Assembly: GCF_012184425.1 (NCBI RefSeq)
Contig: NZ_VTOW01000001.1
Location: forward strand, 372,001 to 436,000
Direction: 5' to 3'
DNA: 64,000 nucleotides
Origin: Candidatus Manganitrophus noduliformans
GTDB lineage: Bacteria > Nitrospirota > Nitrospiria > SBBL01 > Manganitrophaceae
Every line of letters begins with the position of its first letter. Position 1 is the stretch's first letter. Shown here piece after piece: positions 9,672 to 33,653 of the stretch. Under the pieces are notes generated by a model. The model saw nothing but the letters and a program-made list of their open reading frames with translations. It did not search any database and had not been told where the DNA came from. The position numbers and the translations under genes are program-made.

Positions 9672-11678
9672 ATGTTGTCTTTCGCCTCAGCGTTCTTCTT
9701 CGGTTTGAAACCAATTAAGTTATATTTTTTCGGCCGCCGATCTCCGCTTCTACAGAGCGTAACGACGTTCCTTTTGTTTTTTCTCCTCCTGATTTGTGCG
9801 AGGCCTGCTTTTGCTGGAGATGCTCAGGACTATCTGCAAGAGCTGATCGAAGCCTCACGTCAGAATGAGCTTTCTCAACAACGCTACTGGCATCTTCTTC
9901 TTCATTATCGTCCGGCCCTCCTCGGGGGTGTCGTCAGCGAGGCCGATCCGGCCGGCTTCTTCCTGGCGCCCGACGGGAAAACGAACCCCCAGGCCGAGCT
10001 GGAGGCCACCCTTGCCGCTTTTTTTAGTGAGGAGCTCGTCGCCACATCAAAACAGCCGGCCCAGTGCGCCTTCATCGCCCGGTATCATTGGCTTAAGACG
10101 GAGCTCGGCATCGATCCGACACGCCTCCCGGAACAGCAATGCGGCCGGTTCGATGCCTGGTATGCGGCGCTCAATCCTCAATCGATGACCTTGATTTTCC
10201 CTTCGGCCTACATGAACAACCCCTCATCTATGTTCGGCCACACCCTTCTTCGGATCGACCAGAAGGACCAGACGGAACAGACAGAGATTCTCGACTACAC
10301 CGTCAACTACGCCGCCAACGTGACGACCGATAACGGTGTTCTCTTTGCGGTGCTTGGAATTACCGGCGGCTTCAAGGGGAATTTTTCGACGATTCCCTAT
10401 TATCTCCAGGTTCGCAAATACAGCGATATGGAAAACCGAGACATTTGGGAATATCGGTTGAACCTCACCGAGGAGCAGATCCGGCGAATGCTGATGCATG
10501 CCTGGGAGCTCGGCAATACCGCCTTCACTTATTACTTCTTCAAGCAGAACTGCTCCTATCAACTGCTTCCCCTGCTGGAGGTCGCCGACCCCGATCTTCA
10601 CCTGACAGATTCCTTCTGGTTCTGGACAATTCCAGCCGACACCGTTCGCCTGATCGCATCGGTGCCGGGGCTCGTCGGCGAGATCACCTACCGCCCTGCG
10701 CGCGGAACCCAGATCCGTCAAAAAAGAGACCATCTTTCATCCGAGGAGCGTCGGCTTTTGACGGAGATCGATCGAAATACCTCGGCAGCGATCGAATCCG
10801 AGCCGTTCAATACCCTCCCGATCGACCGGCAGGCGTTTCTTCTCGATATCGCTTACGACTACACCCGTTATCAGACGGCGAAGGAAGAGACCGGTCCCGA
10901 GGCGATCAAGAAAAAGCAGCGATTATTGCTCGCGCGCCGAAGCGGGCTGCGGGTGCAGAGTCCGGCGGTCCGATTCGAGCCGACGACGGTCCCCCCCGAG
11001 CAGGGGCATGAGACGGCGCGCGTCGGCCTGGGTCTCGGCTGGCGGGAGGGGGAGCCGTTTGAAGAAATTGCCATTCGGCCGGCCTACCAAGATCTGCTCG
11101 ATGATGAGACTGGTTACACACCCGGCGCGCAGATCGAGCTGATGAACGCGCGGCTTCGCCATTACAATCACCAAGACAAGACCGTGCTCCACTCTCTCTC
11201 CTTCGCCAACATCATTTCCCTCTTTCCGCTCGATCCCCTCTTTAAGAAACCCTCTTGGAAGGTGAGCGTCGGCCTGGAAACGTTGACCGGTAGTCCTTGC
11301 CGCAACTGCCGCTATTTTGCTTTGAACGCCGGCACCGGGAGCGCCTTGGAAGCGCATCTGCTCCGGCGAGAGCTGATTTATTTCTTTATCGAAGTGGATG
11401 GGAATTATGGAGGATTCTTCGACCCGAATTATCGGGCCGGCATCGGCGGGACGATCGGAGTATTGGCCGACCTGGCGTCTCGGTGGAAGGCACATCTTTT
11501 TGCAACGTATCTATCCTATCCTCTCGGCGATCGCTCCCACGATCTGAAGATGTCGCTCCAGCAGCGGGTGACCCTGCAAAAAGACTTGGCACTACGCGTG
11601 GAGCTCAACCGCCGGCAGGAATTCGATCGACGCGACTTCCTGAATGAGGCGCTTGTCACGGTTCATTTTTATTTTTAG
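9672..11678 (+). CDS. DUF4105 (Lnb-type N-terminal periplasmic domain) protein
   Basis: A 668-residue envelope protein. A hydrophobic signal segment spans about residues 30-47, with a cleavage-like AFA at 46-48. The region around 150-290 carries the DUF4105 hallmarks: L-I-F-P-S-A-Y-M-N-N-P-S-S-M-F-G-H-T-L-L-R, then Y-T-V-N-Y-A-A, and Y-Y-F-F-K-Q-N-C-S-Y-Q-L-L with an invariant-looking cysteine and nearby histidine, reminiscent of a papain-like catalytic arrangement. The C-terminal 250 residues are beta-strand-rich and end in HFYF, suggesting an outer-membrane barrel. The exact start is uncertain because no SD is visible. Family function is not established for this lineage. Confidence 0.78.
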   Translation: MLSFASAFFFGLKPIKLYFFGRRSPLLQSVTTFLLFFLLLICARPAFAGDAQDYLQELIEASRQNELSQQRYWHLLLHYRPALLGGVVSEADPAGFFLAPDGKTNPQAELEATLAAFFSEELVATSKQPAQCAFIARYHWLKTELGIDPTRLPEQQCGRFDAWYAALNPQSMTLIFPSAYMNNPSSMFGHTLLRIDQKDQTEQTEILDYTVNYAANVTTDNGVLFAVLGITGGFKGNFSTIPYYLQVRKYSDMENRDIWEYRLNLTEEQIRRMLMHAWELGNTAFTYYFFKQNCSYQLLPLLEVADPDLHLTDSFWFWTIPADTVRLIASVPGLVGEITYRPARGTQIRQKRDHLSSEERRLLTEIDRNTSAAIESEPFNTLPIDRQAFLLDIAYDYTRYQTAKEETGPEAIKKKQRLLLARRSGLRVQSPAVRFEPTTVPPEQGHETARVGLGLGWREGEPFEEIAIRPAYQDLLDDETGYTPGAQIELMNARLRHYNHQDKTVLHSLSFANIISLFPLDPLFKKPSWKVSVGLETLTGSPCRNCRYFALNAGTGSALEAHLLRRELIYFFIEVDGNYGGFFDPNYRAGIGGTIGVLADLASRWKAHLFATYLSYPLGDRSHDLKMSLQQRVTLQKDLALRVELNRRQEFDRRDFLNEALVTVHFYF

Positions 11679-11698: not shown

Positions 11699-12307
11699 TT
11701 AGAAATGATATTTTATACCGGCATTTACGGTGGTCATTGCCCCTTTCACATCCTCAATTAATTCGAAGTCGAGGTAATCGAGTTCGTCATACTCCACAAA
11801 CCGTTGCGTCACCCCGAACACGACGCTGAATTGCGGCCGAGGATATATCTCTATTCCGATCCCGACGTCGAACCCGTCCCCGGTCAATTCAAGGTCGTCT
11901 CGACGGCCGGAGCCGTCTCTGACCCCGTCAATGACGAGAGCATATGAGCCGAACCCCGCCCGAAAAAAGGCTTCCGCCGGCATGCCCGCAAAAGAAAAGG
12001 TCAATGGAAAGTAACGGAGATTTATCGCCAAAAACGCAATTCCCGCGTCTTCATCATCCACCATATGCCCAGAAGCCCCGAATTCAACCTCAAGGGCAAG
12101 AGGAATGGGAAAGCGATAACCCAGGTTGAGACGGAATCCGGAGCCGGGATCAACCTCGGCAAAGTCGCCGCTGAGGTCTTGCTCAGGGACGTTCACGATC
12201 AGATCCGCCCCGATATACAATCCGTCTTTTGCCTCAAAGGTTTCTGCGCGGGATACATTCACCGTCAGAAGAAACGCAACGATCATTGCGATTAGAAGCC
12301 TCGGCAT
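11699..12307 (-). CDS. small outer-membrane beta-barrel protein
   Basis: A 202-residue protein with a signal peptide (residues 1-21, cleavage near SRA-ET). Alternating strands follow: DGLYIGADLIVNVP, GFRLNLGYRFPIPLALEVEFG, AINLRYFPLTF, FDVGIGIEIYP, FSVVFGVTQRF and VNAGIKYHF. The C-terminal phenylalanine preceded by alternating hydrophobic residues is the usual BAM recognition signature, so an eight-stranded OmpA/OmpX-like barrel is likely. Ligand or role unknown. It is convergent with the DUF4105 gene, whose stop is only 20 bases away, and has its own upstream promoter. Confidence 0.8.
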   Translation of the reverse strand: MPRLLIAMIVAFLLTVNVSRAETFEAKDGLYIGADLIVNVPEQDLSGDFAEVDPGSGFRLNLGYRFPIPLALEVEFGASGHMVDDEDAGIAFLAINLRYFPLTFSFAGMPAEAFFRAGFGSYALVIDGVRDGSGRRDDLELTGDGFDVGIGIEIYPRPQFSVVFGVTQRFVEYDELDYLDFELIEDVKGAMTTVNAGIKYHF

Positions 12308-12443: not shown

Positions 12444-14327
12444 TTACGACGGCAGCGATTCGTTCGTCTCGGGGAGCTCGCCCGAGCCTTCGATCGCTTT
12501 GGAGGGAAGCGCAAGCTTCCGGCCGCTGCCGGCCCAGAAAATTAACACGGCGAGAAACCAGAAAATCGCCACGTTGAGGAGGACCATCCCGACCGCGTAG
12601 GTGAGGCCGGGGGTCGCGGCCCAAGGGGTGGCGTCGTGCATGATCTCGGTGATGTGCCAATCGAGACGGACCGACGACCGGATGTATCCCATCAGCGCCA
12701 TCGTCATGGTGATGAAGACGGCCAGGGAAAAAAGCGCGATGGCTCCGCCGACCGGAAGTTTTCCCCATTGGATGGGGCCGAGCGACCGGGACCGCCGGAG
12801 CATCAGCCAATTCAGGAGATACCCCCCTCCCAGCGCGATCATCGCCGCCATAAACTGCGGAAAGGCAAACCGGACCCGGACGTTGGCCGGAACGTAAAAG
12901 CCGGAGACGCCGAGGTAGATCACGATCAACTCGGCCCCCCCGAAGAGGGCGATCAGGGCGGCGTTTCCCCATTTTCTCCAAGCAACGGTGATCTCTTTGT
13001 TGCATCTTTTGAAGATGATCATGCAAAGGCCGAAGGCGAGGATCATCGTATTGATGGCGGTGTTCTTCGCCGCCATCGTCCCGTAATAGCCGACGATCGG
13101 GTGCTGCGCCCCTCCCATCTGTTTTACCTCGCTCTGGCTCGCCGGAAGGGTGTGCGGGGTCGTCCAGATGATGAACGAGACGGTCAAGATGATCAGCAGA
13201 TACTTGACCAGATAGTTATACCGCTCCGACCCGTTCATCCGGGAAGTTCCCTGCCAAAGGTAATAGGTCACCGTCATGAAAATCAGGCCGATCAGCATCG
13301 CCTGAATCACGAACGGCCAGCTCATCTGCCCTCCCATCAACGTGACCCCCATCCGCTGCCGGTAAATGAAAATCATCTTGGCGAACCAGTAGCCGGCAAA
13401 GGGAAGAAGAAAAAGGTTCACGATGGCGATCATGATGTTCACATGCCCCATCCAATCGAAGTGGGCGCGCCGCGCGGGGTCGCGCGTGGTGAGCATCTTG
13501 TAGGCGGCATACGCCGCGATCACCGCCCCGCTGAACATGATGCTCGCCAAGATCCGATGGACGTTCAGCGGATTCCAGAGAGCGGTGTGCATGATCCGCC
13601 AGACACTGCCGAGGTAGCGTCCTTCGGAATCAATTCCGGCCGGGGACATCATAAACGCCATCCAGGCGTTGGCCAGGCAGACGATCACCACGCCGTTGGT
13701 GACGGTGAGGGCCCCGATGCTCAGGTGAAGCCACTTCCGATCGCCGCGCCGCCAGCGCTCCCAGGTCAGCGTGTAGCCGTAAAGAAGAATACTCTCCAGA
13801 ATAAAACAGAGGGCATAGAGATAGACGACCGGCCGAAAGAGTTGGGCCATATACTGGAAAAATGAATTGTAGAGAAAGAGAAAGGCACCCAGAAGGGCGA
13901 CCCCGAAGAAGATCGTGATCGGATAAAAAGGCATTCCAATCTCCATGATCTCCCGGGCCAGGCTGTCCTGTTTCTCCGACTGCTCCCGATGGCCCCGGCG
14001 GCGGAGATGGCCGAAGAGCTCGATCATCCAGGCGATCATCGGGACGCCGAGGATAAAGCTCCCCATAAAGAAGTGCTGCTGAATGAAAAACCAGAGGAGC
14101 GATCGGCCGTCGATCCCGCCGGTCCGACCGTAGCTCTCCGGATAAGACATCTTGGGCGCAGGGGGACCGGAGACGGGCCCTCCCCCTTGGTAATAGATGT
14201 CTTTTGAAACTTCTCCCGAGATTGCTCCAGAAGGGACCGGCTCCTCTGCGAAAGCCGGCTGAAAGAGGCAGAGGGTGAGAAGAAAAAAAGAGATAAAAAA
14301 AGGGGGTGCGAGGAAATTCCTTTTCAT
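12444..14327 (-). CDS. cytochrome bd-like oxidase, large single-subunit type
   Basis: A 627-residue protein with an N-terminal signal-like segment (1-27, cleavage near AFA-EE), a short Gly/Pro-rich linker, and roughly 13-14 hydrophobic helices. QQHFFMGSFILGVPM near residue 83 and MHTALWNPLNVHRILASIMFSGAVIAAYAAYKM near 245-280 resemble helix 1 and the helix 5 region of CydA and contain candidate heme-ligand histidines. The protein is longer than CydA (about 450-520), and the classical quinol-loop motif GRQPW is not visible. No CydB gene is adjacent. This matches the bd-like oxidases described in Nitrospira relatives, whose electron donor and oxygen activity are debated. It has its own promoter. 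Confidence 0.78.
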   Translation of the reverse strand: MKRNFLAPPFFISFFLLTLCLFQPAFAEEPVPSGAISGEVSKDIYYQGGGPVSGPPAPKMSYPESYGRTGGIDGRSLLWFFIQQHFFMGSFILGVPMIAWMIELFGHLRRRGHREQSEKQDSLAREIMEIGMPFYPITIFFGVALLGAFLFLYNSFFQYMAQLFRPVVYLYALCFILESILLYGYTLTWERWRRGDRKWLHLSIGALTVTNGVVIVCLANAWMAFMMSPAGIDSEGRYLGSVWRIMHTALWNPLNVHRILASIMFSGAVIAAYAAYKMLTTRDPARRAHFDWMGHVNIMIAIVNLFLLPFAGYWFAKMIFIYRQRMGVTLMGGQMSWPFVIQAMLIGLIFMTVTYYLWQGTSRMNGSERYNYLVKYLLIILTVSFIIWTTPHTLPASQSEVKQMGGAQHPIVGYYGTMAAKNTAINTMILAFGLCMIIFKRCNKEITVAWRKWGNAALIALFGGAELIVIYLGVSGFYVPANVRVRFAFPQFMAAMIALGGGYLLNWLMLRRSRSLGPIQWGKLPVGGAIALFSLAVFITMTMALMGYIRSSVRLDWHITEIMHDATPWAATPGLTYAVGMVLLNVAIFWFLAVLIFWAGSGRKLALPSKAIEGSGELPETNESLPS

Positions 14328-14356: not shown

Positions 14357-14386
14357 ATCATACCGGCCCCGGGGGGCGGGTGTCAA
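14357..14386 (-). promoter_or_regulatory. promoter of the bd-like oxidase gene
   Basis: On the minus strand TTGACA (14386-14381) and TATGAT (14362-14357), 18-base spacer with a very GC-rich middle, about 30 bases before the start codon. Confidence 0.65.
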
Positions 14387-15816: not shown

Positions 15817-16737
15817 ATGGCGACTTCCTCCTCCTGGCTCACCTTGGCACCGATGAACACCATCCGCTCCCACTGCGGCGCCGCGGCGATGGGTGGAAAG
15901 CTCTATGTCTTCGGCGGCGGGGGGCCGGAGTTCAAGAGCCTTCAGACGGTCGAGATCTACGATCCCAAAACGGACCGGTGGACCTTCGGGCCGGAGATGC
16001 CGACGCTCCGTTCGGGGGTGGTCGCGGTAAATTTGAATGAACAAGCCTACGTCATGGGGGGGGGATTTCGGCGTCCGGACGGCACCTTCAACTTCCTCAC
16101 TGTCGTCGAGGTCTTCAATCCGAAAACCGGCGCCTGGTCGAAAGGGCCCGGCCTGCTGCAGCGGCACGACGCGCCGGCGGCGACCACCTTCAACGATACG
16201 ATCTATCTTTTCGGCGGGCACCATCCGGAGGCGACCGGCGGCCCGATGACCGATCCGGCGTTTGCATTCTCCGAGCGGCTCGATCGGAAAGAAGGGTTGT
16301 GGTGGGAGATTGCTCCGATGCCGACCCCCCGCTTTTCGCTGGCGACGGTGCCGTTCTCGGAAAAGATTCTGGCGATCGGCGGGGCCGGGTTTCGGGAGGG
16401 GGTCTTTCACAATTACGATCTGATCGAGCAGTACGATCCGGCCGAAAACCGTTGGTCGTCCGACCCGCGATTTCACCTACCGTGGCGCGCGGCGGGGGTC
16501 GGGAGCTGTCTCGTTGATGAGAAGATTTATCTCTTCGGGGGGCACAGCGGCGATCGAGTCCAGGACCGGGCGGCGGTGCTTAATCCTAAGACAAGAAAAT
16601 GGATCGAACTGCCGCTGATGCCCGACGCCCGGGTGGCGATGGCGACCGTTTTTTTGGAGGGGAGAATCTATCTGATCGGGGGACGGGGACCGGACGGAAG
16701 AACACCGACGAACCGGGTCACCGCCTTCACCCCCTAG
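15817..16737 (+). CDS. kelch-repeat beta-propeller protein
   Basis: A 306-residue protein made of about six kelch repeats. Each repeat has the paired glycines (VFGGGG, VMGGGF, LFGGHH, AIGGAG, LFGGHS, LIGGRG), followed by Y-D-P/N-P-K and a tryptophan about 6 residues later (DRWTF, GAWSK, NRWSS, RKWIE). No signal peptide, so it is probably cytoplasmic. Bacterial kelch propellers include mutarotase/epimerase relatives such as NanM, but no such residues can be assigned here. The ATG at 15817 begins 2 bases after the upstream stop. Its TAG overlaps the stop of the convergent NuoF-like gene at the palindrome CTAG. Confidence 0.92.
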   Translation: MATSSSWLTLAPMNTIRSHCGAAAMGGKLYVFGGGGPEFKSLQTVEIYDPKTDRWTFGPEMPTLRSGVVAVNLNEQAYVMGGGFRRPDGTFNFLTVVEVFNPKTGAWSKGPGLLQRHDAPAATTFNDTIYLFGGHHPEATGGPMTDPAFAFSERLDRKEGLWWEIAPMPTPRFSLATVPFSEKILAIGGAGFREGVFHNYDLIEQYDPAENRWSSDPRFHLPWRAAGVGSCLVDEKIYLFGGHSGDRVQDRAAVLNPKTRKWIELPLMPDARVAMATVFLEGRIYLIGGRGPDGRTPTNRVTAFTP

Positions 16738-18140
16738 AGCGCCGGCTCGATGATGTACCGCCCCTCCGCGAAGCTCCGATCGAAATAGTTCTCATCGAAC
16801 GTAAAGGTGTGGGTCGCTTCGTCGAAATCTTTGATCTTCGGCAGGGGGAGATGTCGATCCTTCAGGCAGCCATACTCCAGGTGCTCGACGACATCATCCG
16901 GGAAATTGTAGAAGATGCTGCTGATGTCGATCCCCGTTTCGGTCACCAGATAGCAACGACCGGAGCCTTTGGTGTGAAGGCAGTCTTCCAAAATGGCGAA
17001 GACATCCTGCTCCGTCCCTTTTCCCTCCTCGATCAGCCCCAGCCGGTGAGCGATCCGGCCCGTTCCGGTTTTGCAGGAGGCGCACTGCCCGCACGATTCG
17101 ATCGCCAGGAAACGGGCGAAGTTCAGGCCGGCTTTCAGGATGCAGGCGGTGTCGTCGTAGACGATGAAGCCGCCGGAGCCGATACCGGAAGGGATCTTCC
17201 GCATCGATGCGAAATCGAGCGGGGTATCGAGTTTGTCGGCCGGGATCACGGCGTTGGTGGGACCGGAGAAGACCGCCCGGATATGGCGATCGAGCTTGGC
17301 GCCGCCGCCGTAGACCTCGATTAGAGTTCGCAGCGAAGTCCCCATCGGCAGCTCATACATCCCAGGGCGATTGACATCGCCGGTGAGGGTGAAGATCATC
17401 GTACCGGCGGTGTCGGCCGTTCCGATCGACTTGAACCAATCGGCTCCCCGCAGAATAATATAAGGAACGGTCGAGAGGGTTTCGACATTGTTGACGACGG
17501 TCGGTTGACCGAAGAGACCGTACTCCACCGGAATCATCCCTTTGGCGCGCGGCCAGGCCGGTTTTCCTTCAAGCACTTCCAACTGCGCGCGGTCTTCTCC
17601 GAGAAGATACGAGTCGGGACCGAAGCCGAGCTCAAGGGGGAGGTTCCGCCCCGTCCCCATGACGTTGTCGCCGATGTAGCCGGCGTCGGCGCATTCCTTC
17701 AACGCCCGCTGGAGAATGGCGATCTCTTTTTTAAAAATCTCTTTGATACAGATAATCGCCTTGTAGGTGCCGATGGCATACGACGCGATCATCATTCCTT
17801 CGATCAGCGAGTATGGATTCTTTTGAATGAGGTAGCGATCTTTGTAGGTGCCCGGCTCTCCTTCCGAGCCGTTGCAGACGAGGTATTTCGTGGGGATCAT
17901 GCCGAGGATGTCGGCTTGTTTCTTGTAAACCCCTTCCCATTTGATCCCGGTCGGGAAACCGGCGCCGCCGCGACCGCGAAGGCTCGACCGCTTGATCTCG
18001 TCGATCACCTGCATCTGCGTCATCCCCAGCGCCTTTTTAAGGGCCTGGAAGCCGCCGCGGGCGAGATAATCGTCGAGCGTTTTGAGCGGCTCTTCATGTT
18101 GAAGAAGGATCTTCTGCTCCATCGTTTTCTGATCGGACAT
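16734..18140 (-). CDS. NuoF-like NADH dehydrogenase 51 kDa-type flavoprotein (orphan)
   Basis: A 468-residue protein of the NuoF/HoxF/FdhB superfamily. The FMN/NADH-binding region reads RGRGGAGFPTG at 55-65 and CNGSEGEPGTYKDR at 89-102. The SLBB-like segment is about 245-320. The [4Fe-4S] site has C350, C353 and C356 in ESCGQCASC, with a fourth cysteine C396 forty residues on, as in NuoF. The loop usually reading GEETALL is GEDRAQL here. No nuoE, nuoG or other complex I gene is nearby, so it probably serves another NAD(P)H- or ferredoxin-linked complex, or is a stand-alone diaphorase. Promoter at 18169-18197. Confidence 0.88.
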   Translation of the reverse strand: MSDQKTMEQKILLQHEEPLKTLDDYLARGGFQALKKALGMTQMQVIDEIKRSSLRGRGGAGFPTGIKWEGVYKKQADILGMIPTKYLVCNGSEGEPGTYKDRYLIQKNPYSLIEGMMIASYAIGTYKAIICIKEIFKKEIAILQRALKECADAGYIGDNVMGTGRNLPLELGFGPDSYLLGEDRAQLEVLEGKPAWPRAKGMIPVEYGLFGQPTVVNNVETLSTVPYIILRGADWFKSIGTADTAGTMIFTLTGDVNRPGMYELPMGTSLRTLIEVYGGGAKLDRHIRAVFSGPTNAVIPADKLDTPLDFASMRKIPSGIGSGGFIVYDDTACILKAGLNFARFLAIESCGQCASCKTGTGRIAHRLGLIEEGKGTEQDVFAILEDCLHTKGSGRCYLVTETGIDISSIFYNFPDDVVEHLEYGCLKDRHLPLPKIKDFDEATHTFTFDENYFDRSFAEGRYIIEPAL

Positions 18141-32788: not shown

Positions 32789-33328
32789 ATGAATCTTTAT
32801 ACCGATATCGATTCGCCGCTCGGGTCGATTTTGCTGGTCTCGGACGGCGCTGCACTGACCGGCTTCTATTTCATCGGCCAGAAGTATGCTCCGGACGCGG
32901 AGCCTTGGAAACGGGATCCGAAACTTCAGCTGTTTCGCAATGCCGAGGCCCAGATCGCCGCGTACACATCGGGAAGACTGCAAACGTTTGATCTGCCGAT
33001 CCGGTTCAAAGGAACCCCCTTTCAACTCCAGGTCTGGCAGGCGATCGCGGCGATTCCGTTCGGCGCGACGCTCAGCTACTCGGCGCTGGCAGCGCGGATC
33101 GGCGCGCCGTCGAGCATGCGCGCCGTCGGCTCGGCGACGGGACGCAATCCGATTTCGCTGATCGTCCCCTGTCATCGGGTCGTCGGCCGCGACGGGGCCC
33201 TCACCGGATACGCCGGCGGCCTCGATCGGAAACGGGCATTGCTGAACTTCGAATCCAAAAACAAAAAAGGGGAGAAGATCCAATTGAATCTTCTCCCCTT
33301 GAAAACTGGTGGAGGCGGCGGGAATTGA
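32789..33328 (+). CDS. ogt: methylated-DNA-protein-cysteine methyltransferase with a C-terminal tail encoded across the ssrA terminator
   Basis: A 179-residue suicide repair protein that removes methyl groups from O6-methylguanine. The acceptor motif I-V-P-C-H-R-V (C128) is preceded by V-G-S-A-T-G-R-N-P, and the helix-turn-helix region P-F-Q-L-Q-V-W-Q-A-I is present. The normal end is near Y-A-G-G-L-D-R-K-R-A-L-L-N-F-E; about 24 further residues (S-K-N-K-K-G-E-K-I-Q and a G-rich end) read through the Rho-independent terminator of the opposite-strand tmRNA and stop inside the tmRNA 3' end. The ATG at 32789 follows the cupin stop immediately. Confidence 0.93.
   Translation: MNLYTDIDSPLGSILLVSDGAALTGFYFIGQKYAPDAEPWKRDPKLQLFRNAEAQIAAYTSGRLQTFDLPIRFKGTPFQLQVWQAIAAIPFGATLSYSALAARIGAPSSMRAVGSATGRNPISLIVPCHRVVGRDGALTGYAGGLDRKRALLNFESKNKKGEKIQLNLLPLKTGGGGGN
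33255..33300 (-). terminator. Rho-independent terminator of ssrA, embedded in the ogt coding end
   Basis: Thirteen-base arms (33267-33279 and 33288-33300) with an 8-base loop. On the minus strand the stem is followed by T-rich sequence (TTTTTTGTTTTTGG). It lies entirely within the ogt reading frame on the other strand. Confidence 0.88.
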
Positions 33329-33653
33329 ACCCGCGTCCGAAGATATTCAGAAAAAGAACACTACATGCTTAGTCTCTAATTTGGAATTCGCGTCCAAGGT
33401 CGCCCAGAGACAGGCTCCCTCTTCCGCTAGCCTCGAAAGATCTCACCCAACTCCCCAAGGCGAAGAGTCAGGCCAGCCTGCTATCTGGCATCTTCCCCCC
33501 GCACAGGCGACGGAAAGTCGATGTCACTGCGTTTAGGCAGCGAGAGCTAATTGTTCATTAGCAATTATGTTTTTCCCATTTGTTTAACGAGCCCAATGGG
33601 ACCTCGGCATGCGTTCCTTAACCTCTTTATCCCCGTCGAATCCGATCGCCCCC
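33307..33653 (-). ncRNA. ssrA: transfer-messenger RNA (tmRNA)
   Basis: The 5' end reads GGGGGCGATCGGATTCGAC, and the 3' end has a T-arm (GCGGG, TTCAATT, CCCGC), then the acceptor CGCCTCC and ACCA. Positions 1-7 pair with the acceptor (one G-U), closing a tRNA-like domain. The tag frame at 33562-33533 is GCT AAT GAA CAA TTA GCT CTC GCT GCC TAA, encoding ANEQLALAA. The length is about 347 bases. Together with SmpB it rescues stalled ribosomes and marks the product for proteolysis. smpB is the next gene upstream on the same strand. Confidence 0.97.

Follow-up and report, generated by a model that had tools for sequence, protein, structure and literature searches.

The bd-like gene and its product

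A single open reading frame encoding 627 residues (ATG start, GC3 0.78) runs uninterrupted on the minus strand of the window, the 64,000-nucleotide stretch of the Candidatus Manganitrophus noduliformans genome analysed here (Table 1). A sigma-70-like promoter (TTGACA-18-TATGAT, scoring 11/12) precedes it, with both hexamers kept in the same place in each of the six genus genomes, in agreement with the first-pass annotation, which had given the gene a strong promoter of its own. The region held seven promoter-like sites where 2.0 were expected, and the conservation of the hexamers is stronger evidence for the promoter than this excess in site count. Comparison with the orthologues of the genus gave dN/dS values of 0.04-0.14 and by this measure the gene is under purifying selection. 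In the genus genomes inspected the bd-like gene is followed by one for a beta-barrel outer membrane protein, duplicated in two of them and near an Lnb_N/DUF7840 protein. On the other side is a stand-alone NuoF-like gene (Complex1_51K; its score falls below the NCBIfam cut-off for NuoF), in whose immediate neighbourhood no further complex I genes were seen, and a tmRNA gene with the tag ANEQLALAA is found further along the window.

Table 1. Positions of the features discussed in the text; coordinates are those of the window unless a contig (C) or locus (L) is named.
Feature	Position	Strand	Basis
Orphan membrane protein, cytochrome bd-like (OR-N type), 627 residues	12444..14327	minus	ORF, Pfam, trees
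CydA-homologous N-terminal half (residues 80-321; H85, E178, H201, H257)	13365..14090	minus	PF01654, 5doq_A profile match, hhalign
Sec-type signal peptide, residues 1-27 (AFA/EE)	14247..14327	minus	sequence and hydropathy
Predicted TM6-TM8 (residues 292-396), replacing the canonical periplasmic Q-loop	13140..13454	minus	alignment, hydropathy
VRLDWHITEIM (residues 553-563), degenerate GRQPW counterpart; R554 and H558 invariant, D556 replaces His	12639..12671	minus	alignment
Sigma-70-like promoter TTGACA-18-TATGAT	14357..14386	minus	30 bp upstream of ATG, conserved in 6/6 genomes of genus
Beta-barrel outer membrane protein gene, near Lnb_N/DUF7840 protein	11699-12307 and 9672-11678
Stand-alone NuoF-like gene	16734-18140
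tmRNA gene	33307-33653
TO_1-type bd-like copy	C2:787150-788880 (L039)
Second solo bd-like copy	C3:156181-157947 (L040 8119-10032)
Membrane-anchored FGE/SUMF1-like genes	L039 9800-10633, L113 8972-9802, L110 7764-9643
Interrupted bd-like copy, GAC4-like genome	L010 about 10080-10160
Interrupted TO_2-type gene, GAC4-like genome	G005:C1:984016-985603

The protein exceeds the Pfam cut-off for the cytochrome bd superfamily at the CydA N-terminal homology, PF01654 matching with 46 bits (cut-off 26.2, E=3.6e-12) over residues 80-321 of 627 only. A profile built from 34 relatives matched the solved CydA structure 5doq_A over the same N-terminal half (E=1.4e-14), and hhalign comparison with eight canonical CydA/CioA sequences was limited to about residues 80-285. 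As a single sequence the protein found no match in a PDB search, none of the NCBIfam models matches it and it contains no CXXCH motif. An internal duplication relating the N- and C-terminal halves was considered and found no support (hhalign Prob below 1%).

The N-terminus reads as a predicted Sec signal peptide (MKRNFLAPPFFISFFLLTLCLFQPAFA followed by EE) on the basis of sequence and hydropathy. About 13 membrane helices are predicted after it from family-averaged hydropathy, whereas CydA has nine, so that both the signal-like N-terminus and the surplus of helices given in the first-pass annotation held. Other bd-like oxidases have been described with additional helices where the Q-loop would be (PMC3578206). 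An AlphaFold2 model from five sequences (pLDDT 40.6) was too poor for use.

Heme ligands and quinol site

Residues H85, H201, H257, H392, H409, M418 and H558 are invariant in all twelve members of the window clade and, H201 excepted, are predicted by hydropathy to lie at or near the periplasmic face. In E. coli CydA the counterparts of H85, H201, H257 and M418 are H19, H126, H186 and M393, the last being matched by MAFFT only, as hhalign detects nothing significant over the C-terminal half; E178, the counterpart of E107, is also kept. M418 is probably the Met ligand, acting with H257 for the low-spin heme, and H85 would be the ligand for the high-spin heme. The mapping of heme ligands that had been proposed as a check of the annotation thus found H85, H257 and M418 unchanged throughout the clade. 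Across the canonical CydA sequences aligned, H19, E99, E107, H126, H186, M393 and E445 are all invariant, but the window protein lacks the full canonical quinol-oxidising (qOR) ligand set of H19, E99, H186, M393 and E445, since Leu stands in place of both Glu residues that bind the second active-site heme (L170 for E99, L545 for E445). The remaining long bd-like proteins in the alignment likewise have no Glu at the E99 or E445 column.

One Nitrospira bd-like variant has been reported to hold all heme-copper-type ligands, with other variants exchanging a CuB His for Gln and the high-spin heme His for Phe (PMC8026999). Columns 408 and 556 of our alignment would match these published ligand positions, and they carry His and His in NIDE0901-type proteins, Gln and either Phe or His in bd-like_3, and Gln and Asp in the window protein. 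With Q408 and D556 the window protein lacks, at the putative CuB and high-spin heme columns, the full His set on which the heme-copper-type proposal for NIDE0901-like proteins appears to be based. Residues particular to the window clade (S262, S266, H295, A316 and R325) are grouped near the helix of the low-spin heme and the helix after it, and could reflect a different electron donor.

The residues of the canonical quinol site are missing. The GRQPW motif is absent from the window protein, the aligned stretch being VRLDW at residues 553-557, and the Q-loop residues K252 and E257 of E. coli align with M326 and Q334. CydB (PF02322) had no match anywhere in the 5.17-Mb genome, the same search being positive in 10 of 14 control genomes. 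The gene therefore has neither the K252/E257 and GRQPW residues nor the CydB partner that define a canonical quinol-oxidising CydA, and the first-pass description of a 627-residue bd-like protein without GRQPW or CydB was correct. Helices added where the Q-loop would be, retained b-heme ligand residues and missing quinol residues, the features expected of a Nitrospirota bd-like oxidase (OR-N type), agree with the account of bd-like oxidases in PMC3578206.

Phylogeny

A tree of the CydA-homologous half separates the long bd-like proteins, united at 99/98, from the nine canonical CydA/CioA sequences included, united at 100/100, and placement of the window protein with canonical CydA/CioA was rejected (AU p=0.000235), the phylogenetic check thus setting it outside the ordinary CydA proteins. 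The 99/98 group holds the window protein together with the Nitrospira bd-like and NIDE0901-type proteins, for which the label OR-N is taken from PMC12342949 and PMC10839748. The full-length tree recovers a monophyletic window clade (100/100) within a narrower group (99/99) that also holds Nitrospira bd-like_3 and bd-like_4, TO_1 and solo copy 2, upholding the proposed kinship with Nitrospira and Manganitrophus bd-like proteins. The names bd-like_3 and bd-like_4 follow PMC6606698, a study that describes bd-like_3 in a cluster with two cytochromes c and an alternative NxrC, and a duplicate of it a few genes downstream; here the pair was located by gene order in one genome (G247, L110).

Three candidates compete as sister of the window clade: grouping with bd-like_4 had support of 65/89, the order's TO_1 as sister gave AU p=0.55 and solo copy 2 gave p=0.08. 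The origin of the gene in a duplication of TO_1 specific to the Troglogloeales is accordingly not rejected by the AU test. The stem branch of the window clade is long, at about 1.2 changes per site. Scans of viral contigs with the family alignment found no relative, nor were any found on plasmids.

Distribution and gene context

Among named relatives with the gene, Ca. Manganitrophus sp. GAC4 is nearest at 93%, followed by a Ca. Manganitrophaceae MAG at 89%. One copy is present in each of the six family genomes at 80-100% identity and, among 296 Nitrospirota genomes, copies of at least 60% identity occur only in the nine sampled genomes of the same order, Troglogloeales according to named records. 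Because each of these nine has one copy, the gene is a core gene of the order and not specific to manganese oxidisers, and its order-wide presence cautions against calling it manganese-specific. All nine also hold one TO_1-type copy at 46-50% identity, while TO_1-type copies without the second copy occur in another family (f8). In the GAC4-like genome the bd-like copy and a TO_2-type gene are each interrupted. The frame of the former breaks in the signal-peptide region and this, together with the splitting of the TO_2-type gene in the same genome, makes assembly errors likely.

The window gene is one of eight bd-like genes in the genome, which also has one heme-copper oxidase. Four clusters, TO_1 to TO_4, have been described for Manganitrophus, the main text of that study placing the bd-like proteins inside them (PMC9040806); loci were assigned to these numbers here by gene content. 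The TO_1-type copy (L039) is found with cytochromes c and an alternative NxrC of the EB_dh domain type, the copy matching TO_2 (L041) is a bd-like protein fused to a heme-c domain and adjoining two MrpD-like genes, and two short bd-like pairs (L042, L043) lie beside Rieske-type and alternative complex III-type genes, resembling TO_3 and TO_4 in kind. A second solo copy of 637 residues has no cytochrome genes nearby and is present in only two of the six genus genomes (G000 and G002). The window gene lies outside all clusters resembling TO_1 to TO_4. Membrane-anchored FGE/SUMF1-like genes adjoin the TO_1/bd-like_3 cluster in every inspected locus with a long enough contig.

OR-N genes usually, though not by definition, cluster with cytochrome c genes or another CydA-like gene. 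No such clustering was seen in the genus of the window, whose copies lie far from cytochrome c genes of any kind. A TO_1-type neighbour occurs only in G160, G176 and G255. A distance of about 2 kb and an FGE-like gene separate the orthologue from a TO_1-type cytochrome c/alternative NxrC cluster in G160 and G176, and in G255 it is about 2.2 kb from a TO_1-type copy. Genomes of the window's genus, and G293 (L120), have the stand-alone NuoF gene near the bd-like gene, in G293 at 130 bp upstream and in the same orientation; no such neighbour was seen around the orthologues of G140, G160, G176 or G241, and those of G140, G241 and G185 have other surroundings. Because contexts differ among the genomes of the order the position of the gene is not fixed, and "orphan" is a fair word. 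As used in the first-pass annotation the term stands in so far as neither a cytochrome gene nor a TO cluster lies alongside in the genus, but not in the sense of a lone bd-like gene in the genome.

Proposed role

The reading we prefer, to which we give an even chance, is that of a periplasm-facing, cytochrome c-linked heme subunit, possibly acting in trans with TO_1. The protein would keep the heme site on the periplasmic side of the CydA N-terminal bundle and have exchanged the quinol loop for extra helices; c-type cytochromes, not quinol, would supply electrons from the periplasm, to be passed on to O2 or to a partner. A periplasmic heme protein fed by cytochrome c would be the most economical model because there are no quinol residues, there is no CydB and the ligands are nearly all predicted to be periplasmic. 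The protein would work in trans with a TO_1-type complex (bd-like protein, diheme c, monoheme c and alternative NxrC), either as the second CydA-like (CydA') subunit of that complex or as a parallel cytochrome c-linked oxidase, and O2 reduction by it is plausible. The TO_1-type cluster adjoining the gene in sister-family genomes and the single TO_1-type paralogue in all nine order genomes support such a partnership. The reading as a whole draws on the N-terminal homology to CydA, the place in the long bd-like clade, the invariant residues, the conserved promoter and the low dN/dS. Against it are the TO_1 copies without a second copy in f8, the Leu residues at E99 and E445, the match of M418 to M393 by MAFFT only and the distance from cytochrome c genes in the genus, and the varied contexts of the orthologues argue against an obligate complex with TO_1. 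The function of bd-like proteins has been described as unproven (PMC3578206; PMC8026999; PMC10839748).

That the protein is instead a stand-alone cytochrome c:O2 oxidoreductase, a homomeric terminal oxidase serving a chemolithotrophic chain alone, is possible if unlikely. The ligands of the low-spin and one high-spin heme and E178 are kept, the promoter is its own and conserved, and most genomes have no partner gene in cis; however, E99 and E445 are lost, Q408 and D556 stand where NIDE0901-type proteins have His, seven further bd-like genes and a heme-copper oxidase are encoded, and OR-N1 and OR-N2 are expected to pair as CydAA' (PMC12342949; PMC10839748). In view of these other oxidases, the missing E99, E445 and extra His pair and the order-wide occurrence, the first-pass suggestion that this is the terminal oxidase of a chemolithotrophic chain was not sustained as stated, and the protein may be an accessory or trans subunit. 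Similarly doubtful, at a like low probability, is a further bd-like oxidase specific to the Troglogloeales and outside TO_1 to TO_4, in which S262, S266, H295, A316 and R325 would adapt the surroundings of the low-spin heme helix to a donor of its own, making it a separate oxidase of the chain for cytochrome c or another donor. Less probable again is the alternative raised by Lucker et al. 2013 for other bd-like proteins (PMC3578206), which the NuoF synteny conserved in the genus and G293 would fit, as would the loss of the second active-site heme ligands and the bd-like gene which that study reports in anaerobic anammox bacteria; but no known quinone-binding residues are left, NuoF is a cytoplasmic-side protein and its neighbourhood was not seen in four of the order genomes. 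Decay of a paralogue without respiratory function could account for the long stem branch, the shifting contexts and the frame interruption in GAC4, but is very improbable given the low dN/dS, the promoter kept in 6/6 genomes, ligands invariant across the order and the likely assembly error.

The window gene is a conserved, relocated member of a described but biochemically uncharacterised bd-like family. The terminal oxidase and electron path of the nitrite and manganese oxidisers of the Nitrospirota are unsettled, with none of the papers examined reporting a purified long bd-like protein. A conserved single-copy member which the TO_1 to TO_4 scheme appears to omit would be an extra, overlooked piece of the respiratory chain, offering H85, H257, H392, H409, M418, H558 and D556 as candidate sites for testing along with the partner hypothesis.

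Comparison with known systems

Canonical CydA (E. coli cytochrome bd-I; 5doq chain A) shares the N-terminal helices with the window protein, including counterparts of H19, E107, H126 and H186, but the latter lacks the Q-loop, GRQPW, E99, E445, K252, E257 and CydB, has extra helices and falls in a separate clade. The NIDE0901-type (OR-N2) and TO_2 proteins have the same long architecture without the Q-loop at 35-38% identity and share H85, H257, H392, H409 and H558; they differ in having His at the Q408 column and, in 9/10, His at the D556 column where the window protein has Gln and Asp. The TO_2 protein additionally carries a C-terminal CXXCH heme-c domain, which the window protein does not, and has the two MrpD-like genes alongside.

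Closer to the window protein is the bd-like_3/TO_1 protein, with 48% identity over residues 37-609 and a shared ligand pattern that includes Q408. It heads a run of genes with cytochromes c and alternative NxrC, whereas the window gene has no adjoining redox cytochrome genes, and D556, H295 and R325 of the window protein correspond to F or H, Y and Q in this group. Nitrospira bd-like_4, beside bd-like_3, is about 42-46% identical to the window protein and adjoins FGE-like genes and the bd-like_3 cluster, as does the window orthologue in G160 and G176. Solo copy 2 (38% identity) likewise has no cytochrome genes near it, but its counterparts of E107 and M393 have been lost (to L and E).
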